From positions 1 to 40,216 of IMG/VR virus record IMGVR_UViG_3300013125_000017: a DNA stretch of 40,216 nt. The stretch is one strand, 5' to 3'. The notes under the pieces are model-generated. The model was not told where the DNA came from, did no database searches, and saw nothing but the letters and a program-made list of their open reading frames with translations. Numbering within the stretch: the stretch's first letter is position 1; each line of letters begins with the position of its first letter. The DNA is from a virus. This document shows positions 9,489-28,876 of the stretch, one piece after another. Position numbers and translations under genes: made by a program.

Positions 9489-10298
9489 ATGAATTCAAAT
9501 TTACTTGAACAACTTATAATAAAAGCATGTCTACAAGATACAGGATTAATAGCAACCCTTTCATCTACGTTTAAAAAGGATTATTTTGATAATTTAACAG
9601 CCTCACAAATTTATAATTATATAATAACTAAATTTAAGCAATATCAAACAATTCCACCTAGAGTAGAAATCATTGCTGAAATTGATAAAGAAAATGATAA
9701 TGCTGAAGCATTTATTCGTGATGTTGACAGTATAGATTATGATATAACCAGAAATTATACAAGTTTGTTTGATAGTATTAATGATTATTTAAAAGAAAAG
9801 GCCGTAAAGAAGTCTATATTAACTTCTGTTGATGTAATAAACAATAAACCCGATGAAATATCAAGTATAAAAGGAATTATTGAAGAAGCATTATCAAAAG
9901 ATCTGAAAATAGACTTAGGTTTAGATTATTTCGGGGCATTAAAGGATCGTTTGATAAGAATAATGAGTACAGATGTTACAAGAGTACCATCATATTTTCC
10001 TAAATTTGATGAATATATATCTGGTGGGTTTCCGCCATATACACTATCCATAATGCTCGCCAGGATACATGGTTTTAAGTGTATTTATGGTGATGGTATT
10101 ATTACCATTATGGATTCAAAGAATTTTATTAAAAAAATAAAAATATCTGATTTATATAAACATTCTTGTATAGATGAATGTAAGCAACAAAATAATTTTG
10201 AACAAAAACCAAAACTACTTTTGTTTCAAAGGAAATATGGAGAAATAGAAGGAGAAAAAAGATATAATGAGTGGCAGAATATCAACAAGAAAGGGTAA
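9489..10298 (+). CDS. 41: Replicative DNA helicase gp41, N-terminal piece fused to a very short N-intein
   Basis: Residues 1-197 are the N-terminal helicase (DnaB/gp41-like) up to its Walker A loop: SGGFPPYTLSIMLARIHGFK. Directly after the P-loop lysine an intein starts at Cys198 (CIYGDGIITIMD, then IKISDLYK). This N-intein resembles the roughly 25-residue N-fragment of atypically split inteins such as AceL-TerL (C-x-Y-G-D...IKIxDLYK). The frame then runs on in a linker and one KYGEIEGEKRYNEW repeat, shared with the endonuclease at 11669-12895, before the stop. The Walker A serine is on the next piece (10510-11637), so the helicase cannot bind ATP until it is spliced. Start follows AAAAAGGAATAGAAGATA. 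Confidence 0.85.
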   Translation: MNSNLLEQLIIKACLQDTGLIATLSSTFKKDYFDNLTASQIYNYIITKFKQYQTIPPRVEIIAEIDKENDNAEAFIRDVDSIDYDITRNYTSLFDSINDYLKEKAVKKSILTSVDVINNKPDEISSIKGIIEEALSKDLKIDLGLDYFGALKDRLIRIMSTDVTRVPSYFPKFDEYISGGFPPYTLSIMLARIHGFKCIYGDGIITIMDSKNFIKKIKISDLYKHSCIDECKQQNNFEQKPKLLLFQRKYGEIEGEKRYNEWQNINKKG

Positions 10299-10509
10299 GG
10301 GATCTCTTCCTTGGTATATTAAGAAATATGGTAATATAGAAGGAACGAAAAAATACCAAGAAAAAACAAATAAATTGAAGGGCTGTCACTCCCTTCCTTG
10401 GTATATTGAGAAATATGAAGGTAATAAAAGATATCAAGAGTATTGTTCCTATAAAGAGATTATAATAATAATCCGGTTGAAACAATTCAGAAATGTTTGG
10501 AGTTCATAA
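10213..10509 (+). pseudogene. Decayed homing endonuclease repeats between the two halves of the first helicase intein
   Basis: Three copies of a repeat with consensus KYG-x-IEG-x-K-(R/K)-Y occur here in two frames: QRKYGEIEGEKRYNEW in the frame of the helicase N-piece, and WYIKKYGNIEGTKKYQE and WYIEKYEGNKRYQEY in the frame of 10267-10509. In a further frame, NPVETIQKCLEFING runs to a TAA that overlaps the ATG of the next gene (ATGGATAA). The same repeat stands near the N-terminus of the intact endonuclease at 11669-12895. No nuclease domain remains, and at least two frame changes separate the pieces, so this is a remnant of an endonuclease that once occupied this intein. Confidence 0.7.
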
Positions 10510-11637
10510 ATGGATAATATTTGTAAAGAGTATAGAAAATGTGAAGATATTTCGATATATACAAATATAGGATGGGTTCCTGTTGATTATGTATTAAAAA
10601 CAATCCCATTTGAAAAATATATTGTACTATTTGAATCTGGCAGAGAAATAGAATGTGCTGATAGACATGCTTTCATAAATGAAGAATATAAAACAATCAT
10701 AACCAAGGATTTAAAAATAGGGGATAGAATACTTTCTGATGATGGTGTTGATATTGTGTTTGATATATTCAATACTGGTGAATATGAAGAAATGTATGAT
10801 GTCAGTCTAAGAGACCATCATCTTTATTATGCAAACGGTTTATTGTCACACAATTCAGCATTTTTGGCTAATATGGCGGCAAGACAAGTTCTAAATGGAT
10901 GGAATGTTGTTCTTGCTTCATTAGAAATGTCAGAAGATGCCTTTGCACAAAGATTTGATGCTATCTTTTCAATGTATGATATAAACAAATTATATAAGGA
11001 TTCCCAAGTAAGGAAAAAACTTCCTTCGGCATTAGATAAGGTAAAGGGTACATCTGGTAGAGGAAATCTTTGGATAAAGCAGTATCCTACAGGTAAGGCA
11101 ACGGTTGAGGATTTTAGAAAATACATAAGAGAATTAACAATGAGAGGACTGAACCCTCAAATATTTATTTGTGATTATATGAATCTGATGAAGCCAGCAT
11201 ATAAAAGCAAAGGAGATATGTATAATGATGTTAAAACAATTTCAGAAGAATTAAGAGCAATGTCATTTGAATTTAAAATGCCTATAATATCTGTTAGTCA
11301 GTTGAATAGGGAGGGTATGAATATACCCTTTGAACAAGTTGATTTTACATATATATCAGAATGTTTATCTTTAGATACCTCTGTGTTGAAATGGGATGGT
11401 AAAATATACATTGCTGAAAAAATATCAAATCTAAAGAAAGATGATATAATTATGGGTAGCAAGGATAATGTTTGTGTAAAAAGACTCTTCAATAAAAAAA
11501 TTAAAAAAATGTATAAAATAAAAACGAAAAGTGGTAAGGAAATAATTTGTTCAGCAGATCATAAATTCCCAACATCAGAAGGTATAAAAAATATAAATAG
11601 TGGTCTTTGTGTTGGTGAAAAATTGAAAACTTTATAA
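10510..11637 (+). CDS. 41: Helicase gp41, middle piece, flanked by a C-intein and a second N-intein
   Basis: 375 residues in three parts. Residues 1-115 are a long C-intein: block B-like ESGREIECADRHAF, then blocks F/G HHLYYANGLLSHN ending in Asn115. Residues 116-284 are helicase extein starting with the Ser that completes Walker A (SAFLANMAARQ), then Walker B-type IFICDYMNLM and the sensor loop SVSQLNREG, ending YISE. Residues 285-375 are a second, canonical N-intein (CLSLDTSVLKWDG; block B SGKEIICSADHKFPT), very like the known gp41-1 split intein. This one polypeptide must take part in two trans-splicing reactions. It has no obvious ribosome site and starts by overlapping the stop of the decayed endonuclease frame. 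Confidence 0.88.
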   Translation: MDNICKEYRKCEDISIYTNIGWVPVDYVLKTIPFEKYIVLFESGREIECADRHAFINEEYKTIITKDLKIGDRILSDDGVDIVFDIFNTGEYEEMYDVSLRDHHLYYANGLLSHNSAFLANMAARQVLNGWNVVLASLEMSEDAFAQRFDAIFSMYDINKLYKDSQVRKKLPSALDKVKGTSGRGNLWIKQYPTGKATVEDFRKYIRELTMRGLNPQIFICDYMNLMKPAYKSKGDMYNDVKTISEELRAMSFEFKMPIISVSQLNREGMNIPFEQVDFTYISECLSLDTSVLKWDGKIYIAEKISNLKKDDIIMGSKDNVCVKRLFNKKIKKMYKIKTKSGKEIICSADHKFPTSEGIKNINSGLCVGEKLKTL

Positions 11638-11640
11638 ATA
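11633..11640 (+). promoter_or_regulatory. T4-type late promoter motif before the intein endonuclease
   Basis: TATAAATA overlaps the stop of the middle helicase piece, 29 bp upstream of the endonuclease ATG at 11669; a second copy is at 11592-11599. T4 homing endonucleases such as I-TevI are known to be delayed by late promoters, which fits. The motif is common by chance at this base composition. Confidence 0.3.
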
Positions 11641-11668
11641 GATATAAATCAGTTGTGGGGGTAAGACG

Positions 11669-12895
11669 ATGGTAAAGTTTTCAATGCTAAATAAAGAAGA
11701 TAAGTTGAATAGATTATATAATAGCCCTGTATGGATAAAAAAAATTGGTAATTTTTATATTGATAAAGAAAGGGAAACTATTATAATATCTATTATTTCC
11801 AAATGGGAGAAACTATATATTACAGATATAGTAAGTTTAGCGAGGCTTATAAGATATGCTGAAGTTGATGAAATAAAAAATAACTATAATGTGTTATCAA
11901 CAACAGATGGTATTGAAAAAAGAAAACGAAAATTAAATATGTTCATTCTTCAATATGGGAAAAAAGAAGGTAGCGCACGATATGGCCAATTTACCAATAA
12001 ACTTAATATATTGAATAGATATATTAAAAAATATGGTGAAATAGAAGGATATAAAAAATATGGTCTTTATATAAAAAAACTTTCTGTTTCACAGCAAAAA
12101 AAGGTTATTCGTGAAGGAAAAATAATTCAAAAAGAGAGATCCCTTTTATGCAAGGAGTATTGGATGAAAAGGGGATATTCTAAAGACGAATCAATTTTAT
12201 TAGCAAAAAACCATTCTAATATGTTAGTAAAAAATTCTCATAGTGTTGTTCATGTTGTACCAAGAATACATAGACTCAATACATTAGATTATTGGTTATA
12301 TAATGGATATGATTATGAAACAGCATGTGTAATGAAAAAAATACAAACTGATAAATCTATACAATCAAAAGAGGAATATAAAAAGAAATATGGTGAAAAA
12401 TGGGAAGAAAAATGGGATGTAATGCAAGAAAAGAGAAGGATAAAAACACTCAAAACTATATCAAAAAATAATGGGTTTAAATGTAATGCATCTAAACAAT
12501 CTTTATTGTATTTTTTACCTTTAAAGTGTTGGATAATGAAAAAATATAATATATCAGAAGATGATATATATATAGGGATTGATGGTTCAAAAGAATTTTT
12601 TCTTGCCAATTCAACACAATATTATTTTAGATATGATTTTACAATAAGGACAAAAAAGATTATAATAGATTATCATGGAGAGAGATTTCATCCGTCAAAA
12701 CATATAATACCTGATAAAGAATGGTATAAGTGGAAATCACCATATGGAATATCTTCTACTATACAGTATAATATAGATATTAAAAGAAAAATAGTAGCAG
12801 AAGAATTAGGGTTTAAATATTATGTAATATGGTCATATAAAGAATATGATGATGAAATAAAAAATGTAATGAAATTTATTGAGGATAATATATGA
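11669..12895 (+). CDS. Homing endonuclease of the fractured-gene (Vsr-like) family, in the second helicase intein
   Basis: 408 residues between the N-half and C-half of the second helicase intein. The N-terminal part has KYG-x-x-EG-type repeats (QYGKKEGSARYGQF, KKYGEIEGYKKYGLY) thought to act in DNA recognition. The middle has YWMKRGYSKDESILLA and DYWLYNGYDYETA repeats. The C-terminal domain is Vsr-like: YDFTIRTKKIIIDYHGERFHP (about 320-342), then a long helix with DIKRKIVAEELG and a final YYVIWSYKEY strand. This matches the free-standing endonucleases described between split intein halves in phage fractured genes. It starts after GGGGG and its stop overlaps the next ATG (ATGA), which couples it to the C-intein gene. 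Confidence 0.85.
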   Translation: MVKFSMLNKEDKLNRLYNSPVWIKKIGNFYIDKERETIIISIISKWEKLYITDIVSLARLIRYAEVDEIKNNYNVLSTTDGIEKRKRKLNMFILQYGKKEGSARYGQFTNKLNILNRYIKKYGEIEGYKKYGLYIKKLSVSQQKKVIREGKIIQKERSLLCKEYWMKRGYSKDESILLAKNHSNMLVKNSHSVVHVVPRIHRLNTLDYWLYNGYDYETACVMKKIQTDKSIQSKEEYKKKYGEKWEEKWDVMQEKRRIKTLKTISKNNGFKCNASKQSLLYFLPLKCWIMKKYNISEDDIYIGIDGSKEFFLANSTQYYFRYDFTIRTKKIIIDYHGERFHPSKHIIPDKEWYKWKSPYGISSTIQYNIDIKRKIVAEELGFKYYVIWSYKEYDDEIKNVMKFIEDNI

Positions 12896-13302
12896 TAGAG
12901 TATAATGATGAAATAGAATCTATTGAATATGTTGGTGAATTAGAATGTATGGATATTGAGGTATCAGGAGATCATTTATTCTATGCTAATGATATACTTA
13001 CAAAAAATAGTATTGGAACAATGGCGAGTGCTGATTTTGCTCTTATCTTTGGTAGTGATGAATCTCAGGCAGTATATGAATCTGAACTATTTTATAAAAT
13101 TGTAAAGAATAGATTAGGTGGTAGGGTAGGTGAAATTGATAAATTTTATACAGATATGAGAAATTTAAAGATGTATGATAGTATGGAATTAGATAAATGG
13201 CTTGATGATTCTGGAATATCAGGTGATACCAGAAAAAAGGCAGAAGTTATAGATAGAGTTGAAAATAATAGAGGTAGAAGATCAAGAAGGGAAAGAAGAT
13301 AA
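12892..13302 (+). CDS. 41: Helicase gp41, C-terminal piece preceded by a canonical C-intein
   Basis: Residues 1-39 are a C-intein (ECMDIEVSGDHLFYANDIL, ending TKN39), the same length class and nearly the same sequence as the gp41-1 C-intein. The usual penultimate His is replaced by Lys (TKN instead of THN). From Ser40 the helicase resumes: SIGTMASADFALIFGSDE through VKNRLGGRVGEIDKF, then a tail rich in Arg. Joining YISE to SIGTMASADF gives the continuous gp41 motif. The three exteins sum to 197+169+97 = 463 residues, close to T4 gp41 (475). Confidence 0.88.
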   Translation: MIEYNDEIESIEYVGELECMDIEVSGDHLFYANDILTKNSIGTMASADFALIFGSDESQAVYESELFYKIVKNRLGGRVGEIDKFYTDMRNLKMYDSMELDKWLDDSGISGDTRKKAEVIDRVENNRGRRSRRERR

Positions 13303-15009: not shown

Positions 15010-17790
15010 ATGTTTCGTAATGTCTATTATGATACAAGAAAAAGTAAAATTTGTTTGTGGGATCAAGTGCGAGGTAAAAATGTATATACCAGCATTAATT
15101 GGGTTCCATATGTATATGAATTAGCTGACGATGGTGATATAAAAACTATCGAAGGAGAAACAGCAAAAAAGATAACATTTAATACATACAATGAGTATTA
15201 TGTATATGCTAAGGAACATCCAAATTGCAAAGAAAATTTATTACGGCCAGAAATTCAGTTTCTGGCCGAATATTATCATAAAATCCCTGATGATGAAGTA
15301 GAAAATCCAAATTTAAAGGTATATTCTTTGGATATAGAAGTGTGTGCAGATAAAGCATTTCCAAAAGCTACCGAAGCCAAAGATCCTGTATCACTTATAT
15401 CTGTATATGATATGATGAATAAAACAACCATATCATTCGGTATTAAACCATATGACGGTAAGTATTTGAATGAACCTTGGTTTACATTTGTTCATTGTAA
15501 AGATGAAGAAATGTTACTAAGACAGTTCTTTGGATGGATGCATAAAAATCCATGTGATGTTATAACGGGTTGGAATTGTATTCCATTGACGAATTATATA
15601 TTCAAGTCAAATGAAATTGCACAATTATCAAGTATTATTCCGGGTGATATGCTATCCTTATCAAATGAGGTTGATATAGTATATCCGAGGTCTAAAAAGT
15701 TGGTTAGAAGGATAAAACTTGGGAATGGCAGTTCAATTGAAACATCAGGAGATCATATCATACCAATAAGATATATTAATAAGAATTCCTATACAAAACT
15801 TATAAAAAACGATAAATCTAATAATCACATATATGATGTGGATATGAAAGTTGATGATATACCATTTGAAGAACAATCCTGTTTTGTTCATGTTCCGTTT
15901 GATTTGAATGTAAATAAGTGTAATGATATTGATAATAACTTATTATATTTAGCAGGATTAATATACACCGATGGATCATTGAGAAATAAATCGTGTATAT
16001 ATGATGAATATAGAATATATGAATCAAATACAGAATTATTGAATAAAATACCATATATTACAACAAAAATATGTGGAAATAGAGATCATGGATTTTATCG
16101 AAATGTAAAACACTCTATTGTAAAACCAGTTCATAATCTCATATATGATGAACAGGGTAATAAGGCCTTAAATATATCAATGCTTAGTCGGTTATCTAAA
16201 AAACAATTTTATTATTTTCTTTCTGGCCTTCTCGATGGTGATGGGATTGCTAGTTCTACAGGAATGTCATATTGTGATTACACTAAAGACGGAATTGATA
16301 AACTATATAACTTATGCTTATGGAATGGTATATTTATAACAAGAAGTAAAAATATTATGCATTTTATAGAGTATGACTTCAATTCATTACATTTAAATCA
16401 TCCATATAGATGGAAGTCAATGAAAAAAAGTAGTTTAAATAGGAATTCATCTCAAAAAGCTTCTAAAATCAGATTCAAAAAAATTGATAATGAATATTAT
16501 ATAAGAATAACTGATATTGAAGAAACGGATAAAGAAGTAGAAATGGGTGATATAAAAACAAAGACAGGATATTTTATATCAAATGGTGTAAATGTTCACA
16601 ATTGTATGACATTTGACTTACAGTATTTGATAAACAGGATAGAACGAATTACAGGTGATGAAGGATCATATGCTCTTTTATCTCCTATAAAAAATGTAAG
16701 AACATGGAAACCAAAAGATGGTGATGATGTAAATATAGATATAGCTGGTGTTACTATACTTGATTATCTTGATATATATAAATGGTATAGTCCTAAAAAA
16801 CTTGAACGATATACTCTTGATTATGTATCTATCTTTGAACTCAAGAAAGGAAAGGTAGATTATTCTGTATATAATGATTTACGTCAACTATATCATGATG
16901 ATTGGAATTTATATGTAGAATACAATGTAATTGATTCATTACGAGTAGGACAATTAGAAGAAAAACTTGGATATATAAAATTAGTTCAAACATTATCGCT
17001 ACTTACAAAAGTACCCATGAAGTATTATCATATACAAACAGCTCTGATTGAAGGTATGTTTATTACATATTTTAGAAGAAATGGTATGTGTGCACCCACT
17101 TTTTATGGTGGCACACAAGAAAGTTATGAAGCTGCTTATGTCAAATCTCCAATTCTTGGTATGCATAATTGGGTAATAGATTTAGATATTACATCTTCGT
17201 ATCCAACAGCTATCATTACATTAAATATGTCAAATGAAACATATTATGGTAGAATACTTGGTATGACAGAGGATCAAGTAATGAGTTATTCAAGAAATAA
17301 AAATTTTCCAGAATTTCAAATGATGAAAAATATAGGAAAAATGGAATTTTCAAATAAAAGACTTGATTTATTTAATAATGCTTTAAAAAAGAAATTATTG
17401 TGTATAGCTCCATGTGGATCTGTTTTTATTACTAATCCATTGGGTGTTATTGCTACCGTGGAAAAAAATACTTTTCATAAAAGAATTGAAGTAAAGAAAA
17501 AAATGATAAAACTAAAAAAATCTTTACCTGATTTAAGAGGTAAAATGCTTGAGGATACAAAAGAAAAAATTGCCAGATATAATAGTTTACAGAATGCTTT
17601 AAAAATTATTCTAAATGCTACATATGGCGTTCTTGCTACACCATACTTTAGATATTTCAATATAAACATAGCTGAAGCCATCGTTTCTTGTGGAAGGCAG
17701 ACAATAAAAGCAGGTGAATCAATAGTAAATAATTTATTAAACAATCCTAATGATGAATTAAAGGAAATATTGAAAAATATCAAAGAATAG
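15010..17790 (+). CDS. 43: Family B DNA polymerase gp43, N-terminal and palm part, with an in-frame LAGLIDADG intein
   Basis: 926 residues as translated. Exonuclease motif I is YSLDIEV (Asp108, Glu110). Exonuclease II is split by an intein: VITGWN189 / C532 MTFDLQYL. Polymerase motif A is DLDITSSYPTA (about 724) and motif B is KIILNATYGVLATPYFRYFN (about 865). The gene then stops at TAG 17788-17790, after the helix ending LKEILKNIKE, before motif C (DTDS), which is found in the next gene. Exteins of 189+395 residues plus about 280 after the break approach the length of T4 gp43 (898). The promoter is at 14946-14974. The polymerase must be spliced, and the break before motif C must be bridged or complemented in trans. 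Confidence 0.88.
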   Translation: MFRNVYYDTRKSKICLWDQVRGKNVYTSINWVPYVYELADDGDIKTIEGETAKKITFNTYNEYYVYAKEHPNCKENLLRPEIQFLAEYYHKIPDDEVENPNLKVYSLDIEVCADKAFPKATEAKDPVSLISVYDMMNKTTISFGIKPYDGKYLNEPWFTFVHCKDEEMLLRQFFGWMHKNPCDVITGWNCIPLTNYIFKSNEIAQLSSIIPGDMLSLSNEVDIVYPRSKKLVRRIKLGNGSSIETSGDHIIPIRYINKNSYTKLIKNDKSNNHIYDVDMKVDDIPFEEQSCFVHVPFDLNVNKCNDIDNNLLYLAGLIYTDGSLRNKSCIYDEYRIYESNTELLNKIPYITTKICGNRDHGFYRNVKHSIVKPVHNLIYDEQGNKALNISMLSRLSKKQFYYFLSGLLDGDGIASSTGMSYCDYTKDGIDKLYNLCLWNGIFITRSKNIMHFIEYDFNSLHLNHPYRWKSMKKSSLNRNSSQKASKIRFKKIDNEYYIRITDIEETDKEVEMGDIKTKTGYFISNGVNVHNCMTFDLQYLINRIERITGDEGSYALLSPIKNVRTWKPKDGDDVNIDIAGVTILDYLDIYKWYSPKKLERYTLDYVSIFELKKGKVDYSVYNDLRQLYHDDWNLYVEYNVIDSLRVGQLEEKLGYIKLVQTLSLLTKVPMKYYHIQTALIEGMFITYFRRNGMCAPTFYGGTQESYEAAYVKSPILGMHNWVIDLDITSSYPTAIITLNMSNETYYGRILGMTEDQVMSYSRNKNFPEFQMMKNIGKMEFSNKRLDLFNNALKKKLLCIAPCGSVFITNPLGVIATVEKNTFHKRIEVKKKMIKLKKSLPDLRGKMLEDTKEKIARYNSLQNALKIILNATYGVLATPYFRYFNINIAEAIVSCGRQTIKAGESIVNNLLNNPNDELKEILKNIKE
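15577..16602 (+). other. Full-length intein with LAGLIDADG homing endonuclease in the exonuclease II motif
   Basis: Residues 190-531 of the polymerase, 342 residues. Block A is CIPLTNYIFKSNE; block B is NGSSIETSGDHIIP (T-x-x-H); the LAGLIDADG motifs are LAGLIYTDG (314-322) and LSGLLDGDG (404-412), both with the catalytic acid; block F/G is GYFISNGVNVHN, followed by Cys532. All splicing residues (Cys1, block B His, His-Asn, +1 Cys) are present, so both splicing and nuclease are probably active. It lies between N189 and C532 of VITGWN-CMTFD, so the exonuclease cannot function unless it is spliced. Confidence 0.9.
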
Positions 17791-17848
17791 TGTTCTATCA
17801 ATAAATGTAAGGATGGTTTCATTATATGATTACAAAAGGAGATAAAAA

Positions 17849-17877
17849 AGTAGAGAACATTGATTATGTTCTCTACT
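17849..17877 (+). other. Perfect 12-bp hairpin in the polymerase break
   Basis: AGTAGAGAACAT (17849-17860), loop TGATT, ATGTTCTCTACT (17866-17877): 12 uninterrupted base pairs. It lies 3 nt before the in-frame GAA TTT GAT ACA GAT that encodes the start of motif C, and after an SD-like AAAAGGAG (17834-17841). There is no T-run, so it is not a terminator. It contains the candidate ATG (17866) of the second polymerase gene, which folding would hide. Confidence 0.85.
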
Positions 17878-18729
17878 CCTGAATTTGATACAGATAGTTT
17901 GTTCATAAATGTTGGTTTGTTTATAGAAAAAAATATTGGTAAAGAAAAATGGCTTCAAATTACTGATGATAAGAAAATAAGTATTATAAAACAAGTAGCA
18001 AAGGTGATTGAAGAGAATGTAAATGATAAATCATATCGTGAAATACAAAGAAAAACATATAATTCCTCTGAAACAGATTTTCGTATAAAATTTAAACAGG
18101 AGATTATTGCTAAATCAGTTCTTTTTGTAAAAAAGAAAAAATATTCTTGTTGGATAATAGAAGAGGAAGGGGCTTCAGTTGATTATATTAAGACAACTGG
18201 ATTAGAAATTGTCAGATCAGATACACCTGAAATTGTAAGGCCCTTTTTAAAAGATATAATTACAATGATATTAAAAGGATCTTCTGATTACGAAATATCT
18301 GATAAAGTACAAAAGGTTAAGAAAGATTTATTAGCATCTATACCAGAAGAAATATCAACTAATATAGGGGTACATGAATTATCAAAGTATATAGGAGTAA
18401 ATAATTTATGTAAAAAGGGAACCCCAATGCATGTAAAAAGTGTTGCTAATTATCGTTCGTTATTGAATATATTGAAGTTGGAAGATAAATATGAAGATAT
18501 AGTTGATGGAACAAAGGTAAAGGTTGTATATTTAAAAAAGAATAAATTTGGATTTGAAAGTATGGCCTTTCTTAGATGGCCTACTGAATTTGACAAGGTT
18601 ATTCAAATTGATTATAATAAACAGGTAGAGAAAACTTTTACAAATAAAATAAGTATCTTATTAGAGCCAATGAATAAATTAAATATTATGAATGGAAAGA
18701 TTAAAGAAGTTATAGGTTTATTTTTTTAA
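17866..18729 (+). CDS. 43: DNA polymerase gp43, C-terminal part (motif C and thumb)
   Basis: 287 residues from the ATG at 17866 (TTG 17860 is possible). It begins with motif C, FDTDSLFINVG, holding the second catalytic Asp pair, then KSVLFVKKKKYSCWI and KTTGLEIVRSDTP, then KGTPMHVKSVANYRSLL of the thumb. It ends IKEVIGLFF, which resembles the C-terminal sliding-clamp-binding peptide of gp43. It is in the same frame as 15010-17790 but separated by three in-frame stops. A third-frame stretch at 17826-17880 reads MITKGDKKVENIDYVLYS, whose end is the expected beta-strand before DTDS. Neither start codon has a well-placed ribosome site. Possibilities are a split polymerase, a recoded or bypassed gap, or decay. 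Confidence 0.75.
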   Translation: MFSTPEFDTDSLFINVGLFIEKNIGKEKWLQITDDKKISIIKQVAKVIEENVNDKSYREIQRKTYNSSETDFRIKFKQEIIAKSVLFVKKKKYSCWIIEEEGASVDYIKTTGLEIVRSDTPEIVRPFLKDIITMILKGSSDYEISDKVQKVKKDLLASIPEEISTNIGVHELSKYIGVNNLCKKGTPMHVKSVANYRSLLNILKLEDKYEDIVDGTKVKVVYLKKNKFGFESMAFLRWPTEFDKVIQIDYNKQVEKTFTNKISILLEPMNKLNIMNGKIKEVIGLFF

Positions 18730-21576: not shown

Positions 21577-22689
21577 ATGAAACTAATAAGATCAACTAAA
21601 TGTAGTCTGAAGTTTGCTACAAAACATAAAACCGCTGAATTACAATCTATCCTTGCAGAGTATGGTAAAGTTTGTAATATCTTTATAGATCACTTTTGGA
21701 AGAACGAAACTCCTTCTAAAGCTGAACTCCTTAAAGATATAGTTGATCTTCCTAAAGAGACTTGGCTATCTGCAAGGTTGAGAAAAGTTGCTGCCCGTGA
21801 ATCTATTGACATGATCAAGGCAACTAAAGAGAGATGGAAGTCTAAACCAGATAAGATGAAGATGCCTATACATAAAGGCAAACGAATGTATGTGTCTTGC
21901 ACCATAGCTGATCTCAATGAGTCAGAAGAGGCTACTGAATTTGATGCTTGGTTACATATAGCTTCGGTAGGAGATAAGCATATTTTAGATTTGCCCATTA
22001 AATTCCATAAGCATTTCAATAAGATAGCTTCTATTGGTAAAAGATTAAATAGTTATATTATTACTGATAAGTATGTTCAATTTAGTTTTGAAGTCGAAAC
22101 CTTACCTAAAAAAGAAGGTAACAAGGTTTTAGGTATAGATACTGGTATTAACGCTCTTGCGTCTCTTTCTAACAAGATACAGCTTGGTACAGATATTAAA
22201 TCTTGTATAGAGAGGATAAAGAGGTGTAAGCAAGGATCAAAAGGTCAGAAACAGGCTCGTAGAGCTTTAAAACAGAGAATAGATGAAGTTGCTCAAGAGA
22301 TTATTAAACTCGATCCTGATATGATTGTAGTAGAAAAGTTGAAGGATTTAGGTAAGAATACAAAAGTCAAACGTCTATTGACTAAAAATATTAGACGCTC
22401 TATCGGAATCTGGAATTGGAAGTATTGGTTAAAAAGGTTAGAACAAGCTTGTGAACTTAACCGTGTTAAGTTCCGCACTGTAGCTTCTTTTTATACCTCT
22501 ACAACCTGTTCAGAGTGTGGTTATTCTGATAGGATGAATCGTAATGGTGAGCTATTTAAGTGTCTAAAATGTAACCACGAGATGAATGCGGATATAAATG
22601 CCGCCTTGAATATACTCAAACGATTCATTACAGGAGTCTACGGTTCCTGTTGCAAACCTGAAGAAGTAATGAACTTTAATTTTTCATAA
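21577..22689 (+). CDS. tnpB: TnpB, RNA-guided nuclease of the IS200/IS605/IS607 group
   Basis: 370 residues, the usual compact TnpB length. RuvC-like catalytic residues are present: Asp188 in LGIDTGINAL, Glu near 253 in IVVEKLKDLG, and Asp near 339 in MNADINAALNI. The zinc finger CSECG...CLKC lies at about 311-330. The N-terminal KLIRSTKCSLKFATKH is the usual OB-fold start. TnpB is guided by an omega-RNA encoded at the 3' end of its gene and cuts DNA to preserve the element. All catalytic and zinc residues are intact, so activity is likely. Confidence 0.92.
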   Translation: MKLIRSTKCSLKFATKHKTAELQSILAEYGKVCNIFIDHFWKNETPSKAELLKDIVDLPKETWLSARLRKVAARESIDMIKATKERWKSKPDKMKMPIHKGKRMYVSCTIADLNESEEATEFDAWLHIASVGDKHILDLPIKFHKHFNKIASIGKRLNSYIITDKYVQFSFEVETLPKKEGNKVLGIDTGINALASLSNKIQLGTDIKSCIERIKRCKQGSKGQKQARRALKQRIDEVAQEIIKLDPDMIVVEKLKDLGKNTKVKRLLTKNIRRSIGIWNWKYWLKRLEQACELNRVKFRTVASFYTSTTCSECGYSDRMNRNGELFKCLKCNHEMNADINAALNILKRFITGVYGSCCKPEEVMNFNFS

Positions 22690-27749: not shown

Positions 27750-28876
27750 TTGACATTAATTCATCTCCAATTCCTTATCAGATAAAAATATTTCTATTCT
27801 ATTCTTTGTATTGTAACTACTTTTATTCCAGTCTTTATCAGATATTGTTAATAATTGGATATTATCTAATTCACATTGTTTTTTCTTTATTACATCATTT
27901 ATTTTCTTTTCAGATCTACTATGCCAATACTCTCCATTGATTTCTATTGCTTTTTTAAGATGAGGAAAATATAAATCAAGTTCAAGAAAATGATTTGTAT
28001 TTGGGTTAATAATAGTTCTCCTATCATTCATTATGTATGTTATGTTTAATGTATTTATAAATTTTCTTATTTCAATTTCTTCTTTTGATACACTACATTT
28101 TCCACATCTCTGACCGTCTCTCCAATGTCTAACTGAAATAGAATGTCTATGTTTGGCAGGACAAATAAATTCTATTTTTGTTGTATTTTGAGTTTTATAT
28201 TCATCTTCCTTTGTTATTACATTATATCCTTCATCTTCAAAAGACTTCTTTATATCAGAAAACTCTATTTGAGCTTGATTTTGACAATATGGACATCTAA
28301 TCCCTCTCTTGAATGCTGTATATGTAATATAGTGACTATGGCCGTTAGGACATTTGTAGTTCAATTTTGTTCTATAACCAGAAATTTTATATTCAGGTAT
28401 AAATACTGTGTATCCATTAGAATTAAATAATTTTAATATTTGCTCATTTGAAATAGGGGAATTTTTTCTACATTTTCCACATCTTTGCCCAGAAATCCAA
28501 TTACCCACACTTATTCTATGATAATGTCCATTAGGGCATGTAAAATATAAAAATTGATACCTATTAATATATTCTTTCGTATGTAAAACATATCCTTCAT
28601 CTTCAAATGATTTACTCAATAAATCGAAATCTAATTTGTTTTTCTGATTTATTATAGGATTTGAACATTTATTTGAACAATATAATAATTTTCCATCAAG
28701 ACGAATAAATTCTTTATTGCATCCCTTACAAATAAAGTAATTATAATGTCGTTTTGGTTTCAAATAATATTCTTCTCTTTCTTTATAAATGTTAAATCTT
28801 TTAATATTTTCTTCTGTAAGTTCTATGGTTTTTGGGTACATTGACATTAATCCATCTCCAATTCCTTATTAGATAA
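27750..28876 (-). repeat. 36-bp direct repeat flanking the endonuclease gene (27750-27785 and 28841-28876)
   Basis: The two 36-bp copies differ at two positions. On the minus strand the right copy is the 3' end of the DHH gene with its stop and the overlapping start (SNKELEMD, TAATG). The left copy is the 3' end of the endonuclease itself (SDKELEMN, TAATG). The endonuclease therefore sits between the original and a duplicated copy of the host gene's end. Confidence 0.9.
27756..28847 (-). CDS. Homing endonuclease with zinc-ribbon array and Vsr/EDxHD-like nuclease
   Basis: 363 residues. An N-terminal zinc finger (CKGC...CSNKC) precedes three modules with C-P-N-G-H or C-P-A-K-H and C-G-K-C/C-P-Y-C, each containing GY-x-h...EY. 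The nuclease domain has KEEIEIRKFI, LELDLYFPH, IEINGEYWH (about 295-303), a KKKQC helix and LLTISDKDW. It is a paralogue of the proteins at 3218-4099 and 1-306. The start is the second base onward of TAATG at the DHH stop, with GGAG just upstream inside the DHH coding sequence, so translation is coupled. The last nine residues copy the C-terminus of the DHH protein. Confidence 0.88.
   Translation of the reverse strand: MSMYPKTIELTEENIKRFNIYKEREEYYLKPKRHYNYFICKGCNKEFIRLDGKLLYCSNKCSNPIINQKNKLDFDLLSKSFEDEGYVLHTKEYINRYQFLYFTCPNGHYHRISVGNWISGQRCGKCRKNSPISNEQILKLFNSNGYTVFIPEYKISGYRTKLNYKCPNGHSHYITYTAFKRGIRCPYCQNQAQIEFSDIKKSFEDEGYNVITKEDEYKTQNTTKIEFICPAKHRHSISVRHWRDGQRCGKCSVSKEEIEIRKFINTLNITYIMNDRRTIINPNTNHFLELDLYFPHLKKAIEINGEYWHSRSEKKINDVIKKKQCELDNIQLLTISDKDWNKSSYNTKNRIEIFLSDKELEMN

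Follow-up and report, generated by a model that had tools for sequence, protein, structure and literature searches.

The stretch of DNA considered here (the window) comprises positions 1 to 40,216 of the viral record IMGVR_UViG_3300013125_000017, and its subject is the gene for the gp41 helicase. This gene is encoded by three open reading frames (ORFs) at 9489-10298, 10510-11637 and 12892-13302, all on the plus strand, and it is interrupted at two points, site A and site B, by split inteins whose N- and C-terminal halves are termed IntN and IntC. The features of the locus are as follows, with lengths in amino acids (aa):

9489-10298, plus strand: ORF1, gp41 N-extein (9489-10079, 197 aa), IntN-A and endonuclease remnant; phrog_19 positions 159-362
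10080-10163, plus strand: IntN-A, atypical N-intein with block A only, about 28 aa (CIYGDGIITI...DLYKH), from profile match and alignment
10164-10509, plus strand: homing endonuclease remnant, the 3' tail of ORF1 in one frame and ORF1b (10267-10509) in the next, with YG-x-EG repeats
10510-11637, plus strand: ORF2, IntC-A (10510-10854), middle extein (10855-11361) and IntN-B (11362-11634)
10510-10854, plus strand: IntC-A, 115-aa C-intein with blocks B, F and G, terminus LSHN|S
10855-11361, plus strand: gp41 middle extein, 169 aa from the Walker A Ser; DnaB_C E 3.7e-18, phrog_19 2.3e-37
11362-11634, plus strand: IntN-B, 91-aa canonical N-intein with Cys1 and block B CSADH; TIGR01445 (intein_Nterm) E 2.4e-9, above the curated cut-off
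11669-12895, plus strand: ORF3, predicted free-standing Vsr-like (EDxHD) homing endonuclease of 408 aa between the halves of site B
12892-13302, plus strand: ORF4, IntC-B (12892-13008, 39 aa, terminus LTKN|S) and gp41 C-extein (13009-13299, 97 aa)

Ribosome-binding-like sequences precede ORFs 1-4, for example AAGGA before the start of ORF1 and GGAG 5' of the ORF2 ATG, and the start of ORF4 overlaps the stop of ORF3 in the sequence ATGA. When the three exteins (197, 169 and 97 aa) are joined, a gp41 of 463 aa results. When this joined sequence is aligned to eight intact gp41 proteins and to the protein of contig L003 after splicing, no residue is lost or gained at GFK|SAFLAN or at YISE|SIGTMA, and the complete intact proteins in the same alignment have 453-507 aa, mostly 453-470. 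At both sites a conserved enzyme gene is split by an intein, and the exteins are colinear with intact homologues. A preliminary description of this DNA had placed gp41 in three genes with two split inteins of different architecture, cut at GFK/SAFLANMAARQ in the Walker A loop and at YISE/SIGTMASADF, with exteins adding up to a full gp41 and a middle gene that carries a C-intein at its front and an N-intein at its back. The ORF coordinates, the gap-free alignment and the intein matches given below bear this out, as they do the lengths it gave for IntC-A (115), IntN-B (91) and IntC-B (39).

Cys1, the block B His, the terminal Asn and the +1 Ser are all present at both sites; at site B they are the nucleophiles and helper residues expected of a class 1 intein. 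For all exteins, IntN-B, IntC-B and ORF3, the nonsynonymous rate (dN) is well below the synonymous rate (dS) in comparisons with L033 and L003, a purifying pattern in which dS is near saturation. The locus is also found in a sister contig, IMGVR_UViG_3300013131_000203, which repeats 13,125 bases with 99.97% identity, four single-nucleotide differences, no indels and the same layout; two of the four differences change amino acids (K29E in ORF1 and S341G in IntN-B). Because the sister contig has no indel, assembly errors can be dismissed as the source of the frameshift and the stop that separate IntN-A from IntC-A. RNA introns of group I or II were likewise considered as the cause of the breaks and were ruled out, as no Rfam match at the gathering threshold was obtained within the window.

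Two split inteins of unlike architecture

At site A, the Walker A loop is interrupted after its Lys and before its Ser (HGFK|SAFL). The intein is split between blocks A and B, with block A in 10080-10163 and blocks B-G in ORF2, and its IntN falls within the 25-37 aa typical of the AceL/GOS-TerL/Cat type. IntN-A and IntC-A together match CatC (6DSL, a consensus atypical intein) with E 2.7e-7, the best value among solved structures and one driven by IntC-A. IntC-A shares 43% identity with its counterpart at this site in L005, and its relatives lie mostly at P-loops, namely in helicases (L005, which equals L043, and L041), in TerL including that of cultured phages, and in ClpA/B-like ATPases (L044, L045). 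In a search of the window in all six frames with a profile of N-inteins taken from other phages, ORF1 gives the best match, with a weak E of 0.0097. By homology, the site A intein can be assigned to the atypical, Cat/GOS-TerL-like inteins. The known members AceL-TerL, GOS-TerL and Cat have a very short IntN and an IntC of 104-115 aa (PMC11766414); site A resembles them in its short IntN, its 115-aa IntC and its P-loop insertion, and differs from them in its replicative helicase host, its +1 Ser and the endonuclease remnant after IntN.

Site B has the junction YISE|SIGT (SE|S), and its halves of 91 and 39 aa show the homology over both halves and the split at the usual endonuclease position that define a canonical gp41-type intein. 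IntN-B plus IntC-B match gp41-1 (PDB 6QAZ) with E 2e-22, and TIGR01445 and TIGR01443 are both matched above cut-off. In gp41-1 itself, SSS follows directly after the intein (PMC7090010), while SIG follows at site B, which means that the insertion point is not the same. The earlier designation as a canonical gp41-1-like pair is apt for the homology and the lengths, which agree with the IntN of about 90 aa and the IntC of about 39 aa of gp41-1 and gp41-8; it needs qualifying for the insertion at E|SIG rather than before SSS and for a penultimate Lys.

The DnaB-with-intein profile PRK07773 aligns over the site B junctions from both sides, and site B probably corresponds roughly to the second known intein position of DnaB. 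The DnaB of Mycobacterium smegmatis carries two cis inteins, in the P-loop and in the H4 loop (PMC7360933). The helicase of the window is similar in having two inteins, one in the P-loop and the other, judging from the profile alignment, near the second loop; the mycobacterial inteins, however, are contiguous in one gene, whereas both of those in the window are split.

Endonuclease genes and the states of gp41 in related phages

Neither the endonuclease gene at site B (ORF3) nor its decayed counterpart at site A had been noticed in the preliminary description. The residues E309, D323, H341 and D370 of ORF3 are invariant in 12 homologues; the order E, D, H, D is what gives the EDxHD family its name. 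An AlphaFold2 model of the C-terminal 174 aa has a mean confidence (pLDDT) of 83, and its top Foldseek match is Vsr (1cw0, prob 0.97, E 7e-3), with the catalytic domain of I-Bth0305I (3r3p) ranking lower (TMt 0.47). The full-length model is poor (pLDDT 65) and uninformative in Foldseek apart from Vsr at prob 0.51. The conserved residues in a modelled Vsr-like fold identify ORF3 as a predicted free-standing Vsr-like homing endonuclease between the intein halves of site B.

Between the halves of site A there is no such free-standing gene, only a frameshifted remnant without a catalytic domain. Its nature was recognized with a YG-x-EG repeat profile built solely from the endonucleases of other contigs and run on the window frames, which matched ORF3 (3.4e-12), the ORF1b frame (10249-10506; 4.6e-4) and the ORF1 tail (2.2e-3), the next match being at 0.63. 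Positions 10164-10509 thus are what is left of a second, decayed endonuclease gene. The match in the ORF1 tail implies that IntN-A runs on in frame to 72 aa; its earlier description as about 30 residues with block A only is accurate for the intein part (28-30 residues) and omits the remainder of these 72 residues past the splice point, which belongs to the endonuclease remnant.

Among the relatives compared, gp41 occurs in a series of states. Both sites are empty in about 26 contigs, and the gp41 of phage XacN1, which was retrieved as a further match together with phages Atu_ph07 and BUCT-ZZ01, is one continuous ORF without intein. Only site B is split in 12 relatives (L003, Shigella phage ESh36 (ON528746) and ten further contigs), and only the Walker A region in three (L005, L041 and Vibrio phage vB_VmeM-32). 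ESh36 shares site B and vB_VmeM-32 has an atypical split intein in the Walker A loop; each has an endonuclease-like gene between the halves, and each gp41 is fractured only once. In L059 and L060, two of the ten further contigs with only site B split, the endonuclease has been lost. L062:6022-8396 combines a contiguous, cis-acting intein of the atypical family (139 aa) near the P-loop with a split intein at site B. Both sites are split only in the window and its sister contig. As single-site and cis-plus-split states exist in relatives, all steps towards the doubly split state are found separately.

In the fractured genes of Dassa et al. 2009, as relayed by PMC7891396 and PMC10448857, a split intein breaks an essential phage gene and its halves flank an endonuclease gene; gp41 is one of the hosts. 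Going by these accounts, the gp41 of the window agrees with them at site B and differs in being broken twice, with only an endonuclease remnant at one of the sites. ORF3 at site B and the decayed endonuclease at site A account for the origin of the arrangement, which probably arose by two independent invasions of endonuclease-linked intein elements. In this scenario the Vsr-like endonuclease gene of site B is still in place, while only a frameshifted remnant is left of the one at site A, where the split intein would have been retained because the helicase gene is needed.

Probable assembly of the helicase and competing explanations

The locus is very likely the gp41 gene of a T4-like phage, coding for a DnaB-type replicative helicase and fractured twice; its product would be a normal helicase of 463 aa made by two trans-splicing reactions. 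ORF1, ORF2 and ORF4 would be translated as three separate polypeptides. IntN-A on the first chain would pair with IntC-A on the second and restore the Walker A loop by joining the exteins at K|S, and IntN-B on the second chain would pair with IntC-B on the third and join them at SE|S. None of the unspliced pieces would have a complete ATP site. If IntC-A and IntN-B reacted with each other, the middle piece would be cyclized; an IntC in front and an IntN behind is the arrangement by which circular proteins are made in the laboratory, and for this reason such a cross-reaction on the single middle chain would lead nowhere. IntN-A shows little resemblance to IntN-B, while the block F/G region is common to IntC-A and IntC-B. 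The unlike split points (about 28/115 and 91/39) probably help to prevent cross-reaction between the pairs.

Several points weigh against this model. Splicing itself, and with it the orthogonality of the two pairs, is inferred from sequence. IntN-A taken alone is only weakly significant, and some 44 residues of the endonuclease remnant are appended to it. The penultimate residue of site B is Lys and not His, and the same Lys is found in L003, ESh36 and all other site B relatives inspected, which argues for a tolerated family trait. The penultimate His is an assisting residue and not an obligatory one. Intein splicing without it is known (reference within PMC4031507). Finally, an intact gp41 elsewhere in the genome had been named beforehand as a refutation. 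The window record and the sister contig contain one DnaB_C match each, but both are fragments, and because the window covers only 40 kb an uninterrupted helicase gene could still lie elsewhere.

According to one competing explanation, site A is a dying intein whose N-piece no longer splices, with gp41 a pseudogene or replaced by another helicase. The frameshift and stop that separate the halves, the endonuclease remnant fused to IntN-A and the fragmentary state of the genome would fit this. It is nevertheless unlikely, as the exteins and both inteins are all open with their catalytic residues retained, the layout is common to two strains without an indel, and IntC-A has its own start and GGAG. 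Endonuclease-free split inteins occur at site B too, in L059 and L060.

Alternatively, a ribosomal frameshift near 10267-10298 and readthrough of the TAA at 10507 could yield one long chain in which the site A intein splices in cis, given that ORF1b shares the frame of ORF2 and a single TAA stands directly before the ATG of IntC-A. This is very improbable, since two recoding events would be required, the intervening frame is a decayed endonuclease with no conserved domain, and relatives with the same site have genes for IntN, endonuclease and IntC with separate starts. It is no more credible that the pieces act as a non-covalent complex without splicing, like some phage enzymes broken by an intein-less homing endonuclease. 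Unspliced genes in pieces are known in phages, and in the window gp43, too, is interrupted at a point where no intein is seen, but in gp41 intein halves with catalytic residues flank both junctions, and a cut between the Lys and Ser of Walker A is unlikely for a working two-chain ATP site. An assembly or sequencing artefact, conceivable for a locus given as a single metagenomic contig, is refuted by the second contig, in which 13.1 kb are 99.97% identical without indels and the three ORFs recur, and has practically no probability left.

Other fractured genes and the surroundings of the locus

Two further phage genes have a comparable anatomy. In L045:552-9119 (IMGVR_UViG_3300032268_001605), three ORFs together encode a ClpA-like AAA+ protein; an atypical split intein interrupts each of its two P-loops, and each gap holds an endonuclease-like gene. 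In the 352-kb contig IMGVR_UViG_3300032007_000006 (L050/L073/L074/L075), TerL is distributed over three scattered genes on both strands: an N-piece at about 81 kb ending in ...RQSGK|C, a middle piece at about 290 kb with IntC, a cis intein and IntN, and a C-piece at about 253 kb with IntC|CAFIAK. From the computed anatomy, this terminase would need two trans-splicing reactions and one cis-splicing reaction, and the two genes would represent two further independent double fractures. Among phage ATPases, multiple fracturing is probably a state that recurs in nature; helicase, ClpA-like unfoldase and terminase would each have three genes, two orthogonal trans-splicing reactions, a middle IntC-extein-IntN piece and selection against its self-cyclization. 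As the preliminary description had stressed, single fractured genes and both intein types are already known, and two split inteins in one gene are the unusual part. In the literature searched, which covered Dassa et al. 2009 through citing papers, nothing relevant on two natural split inteins in one gene was found.

Engineered multi-piece assembly with orthogonal split inteins makes use of a middle block with an intein half at each end for ordered joining (PMC7090010). ORF2 shares this topology, and the locus would be the natural counterpart of the synthetic systems. If splicing does take place, the locus supplies ready-made pairs (about 28/115 and 91/39) that have evolved to function on a single chain. 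How split inteins originate and why they are kept can be tested directly on this allelic series, whose members have both sites empty, one site split, a cis intein beside a split one, or both sites split, with the endonuclease either intact or lost. The locus is also a warning that annotation pipelines will overlook essential genes of phages when these are divided into three parts.

Further fractured genes were encountered in other contigs. Besides its split gp41, L005 has a gp46/SbcC-like gene (L005:8622-11929) whose P-loop is likewise interrupted by an atypical split intein; an endonuclease-like gene separates the two intein halves. In vB_VmeM-32 (L011:535-2502), uvsX adjoins the fractured gp41 and is itself interrupted by a canonical split intein, whose halves are separated by a SegG-like gene. 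Split inteins also appear to interrupt each of two adjacent topoisomerase-like genes in L010:303-6712 (LR756500, unannotated), where endonuclease-like ORFs stand in between. In the window itself, the gene for the DNA polymerase gp43 is divided between ORFs 15010-17790 and 17860-18729. The break (17790-17860) shows no intein halves, and the first of these ORFs contains a contiguous intein of 342 aa with a LAGLIDADG-like stretch (15577-16602). A transposase-like gene (21577-22689, phrog_506) and an HNH endonuclease-like gene (27756-28847, phrog_559) further mark this phage as rich in mobile elements.
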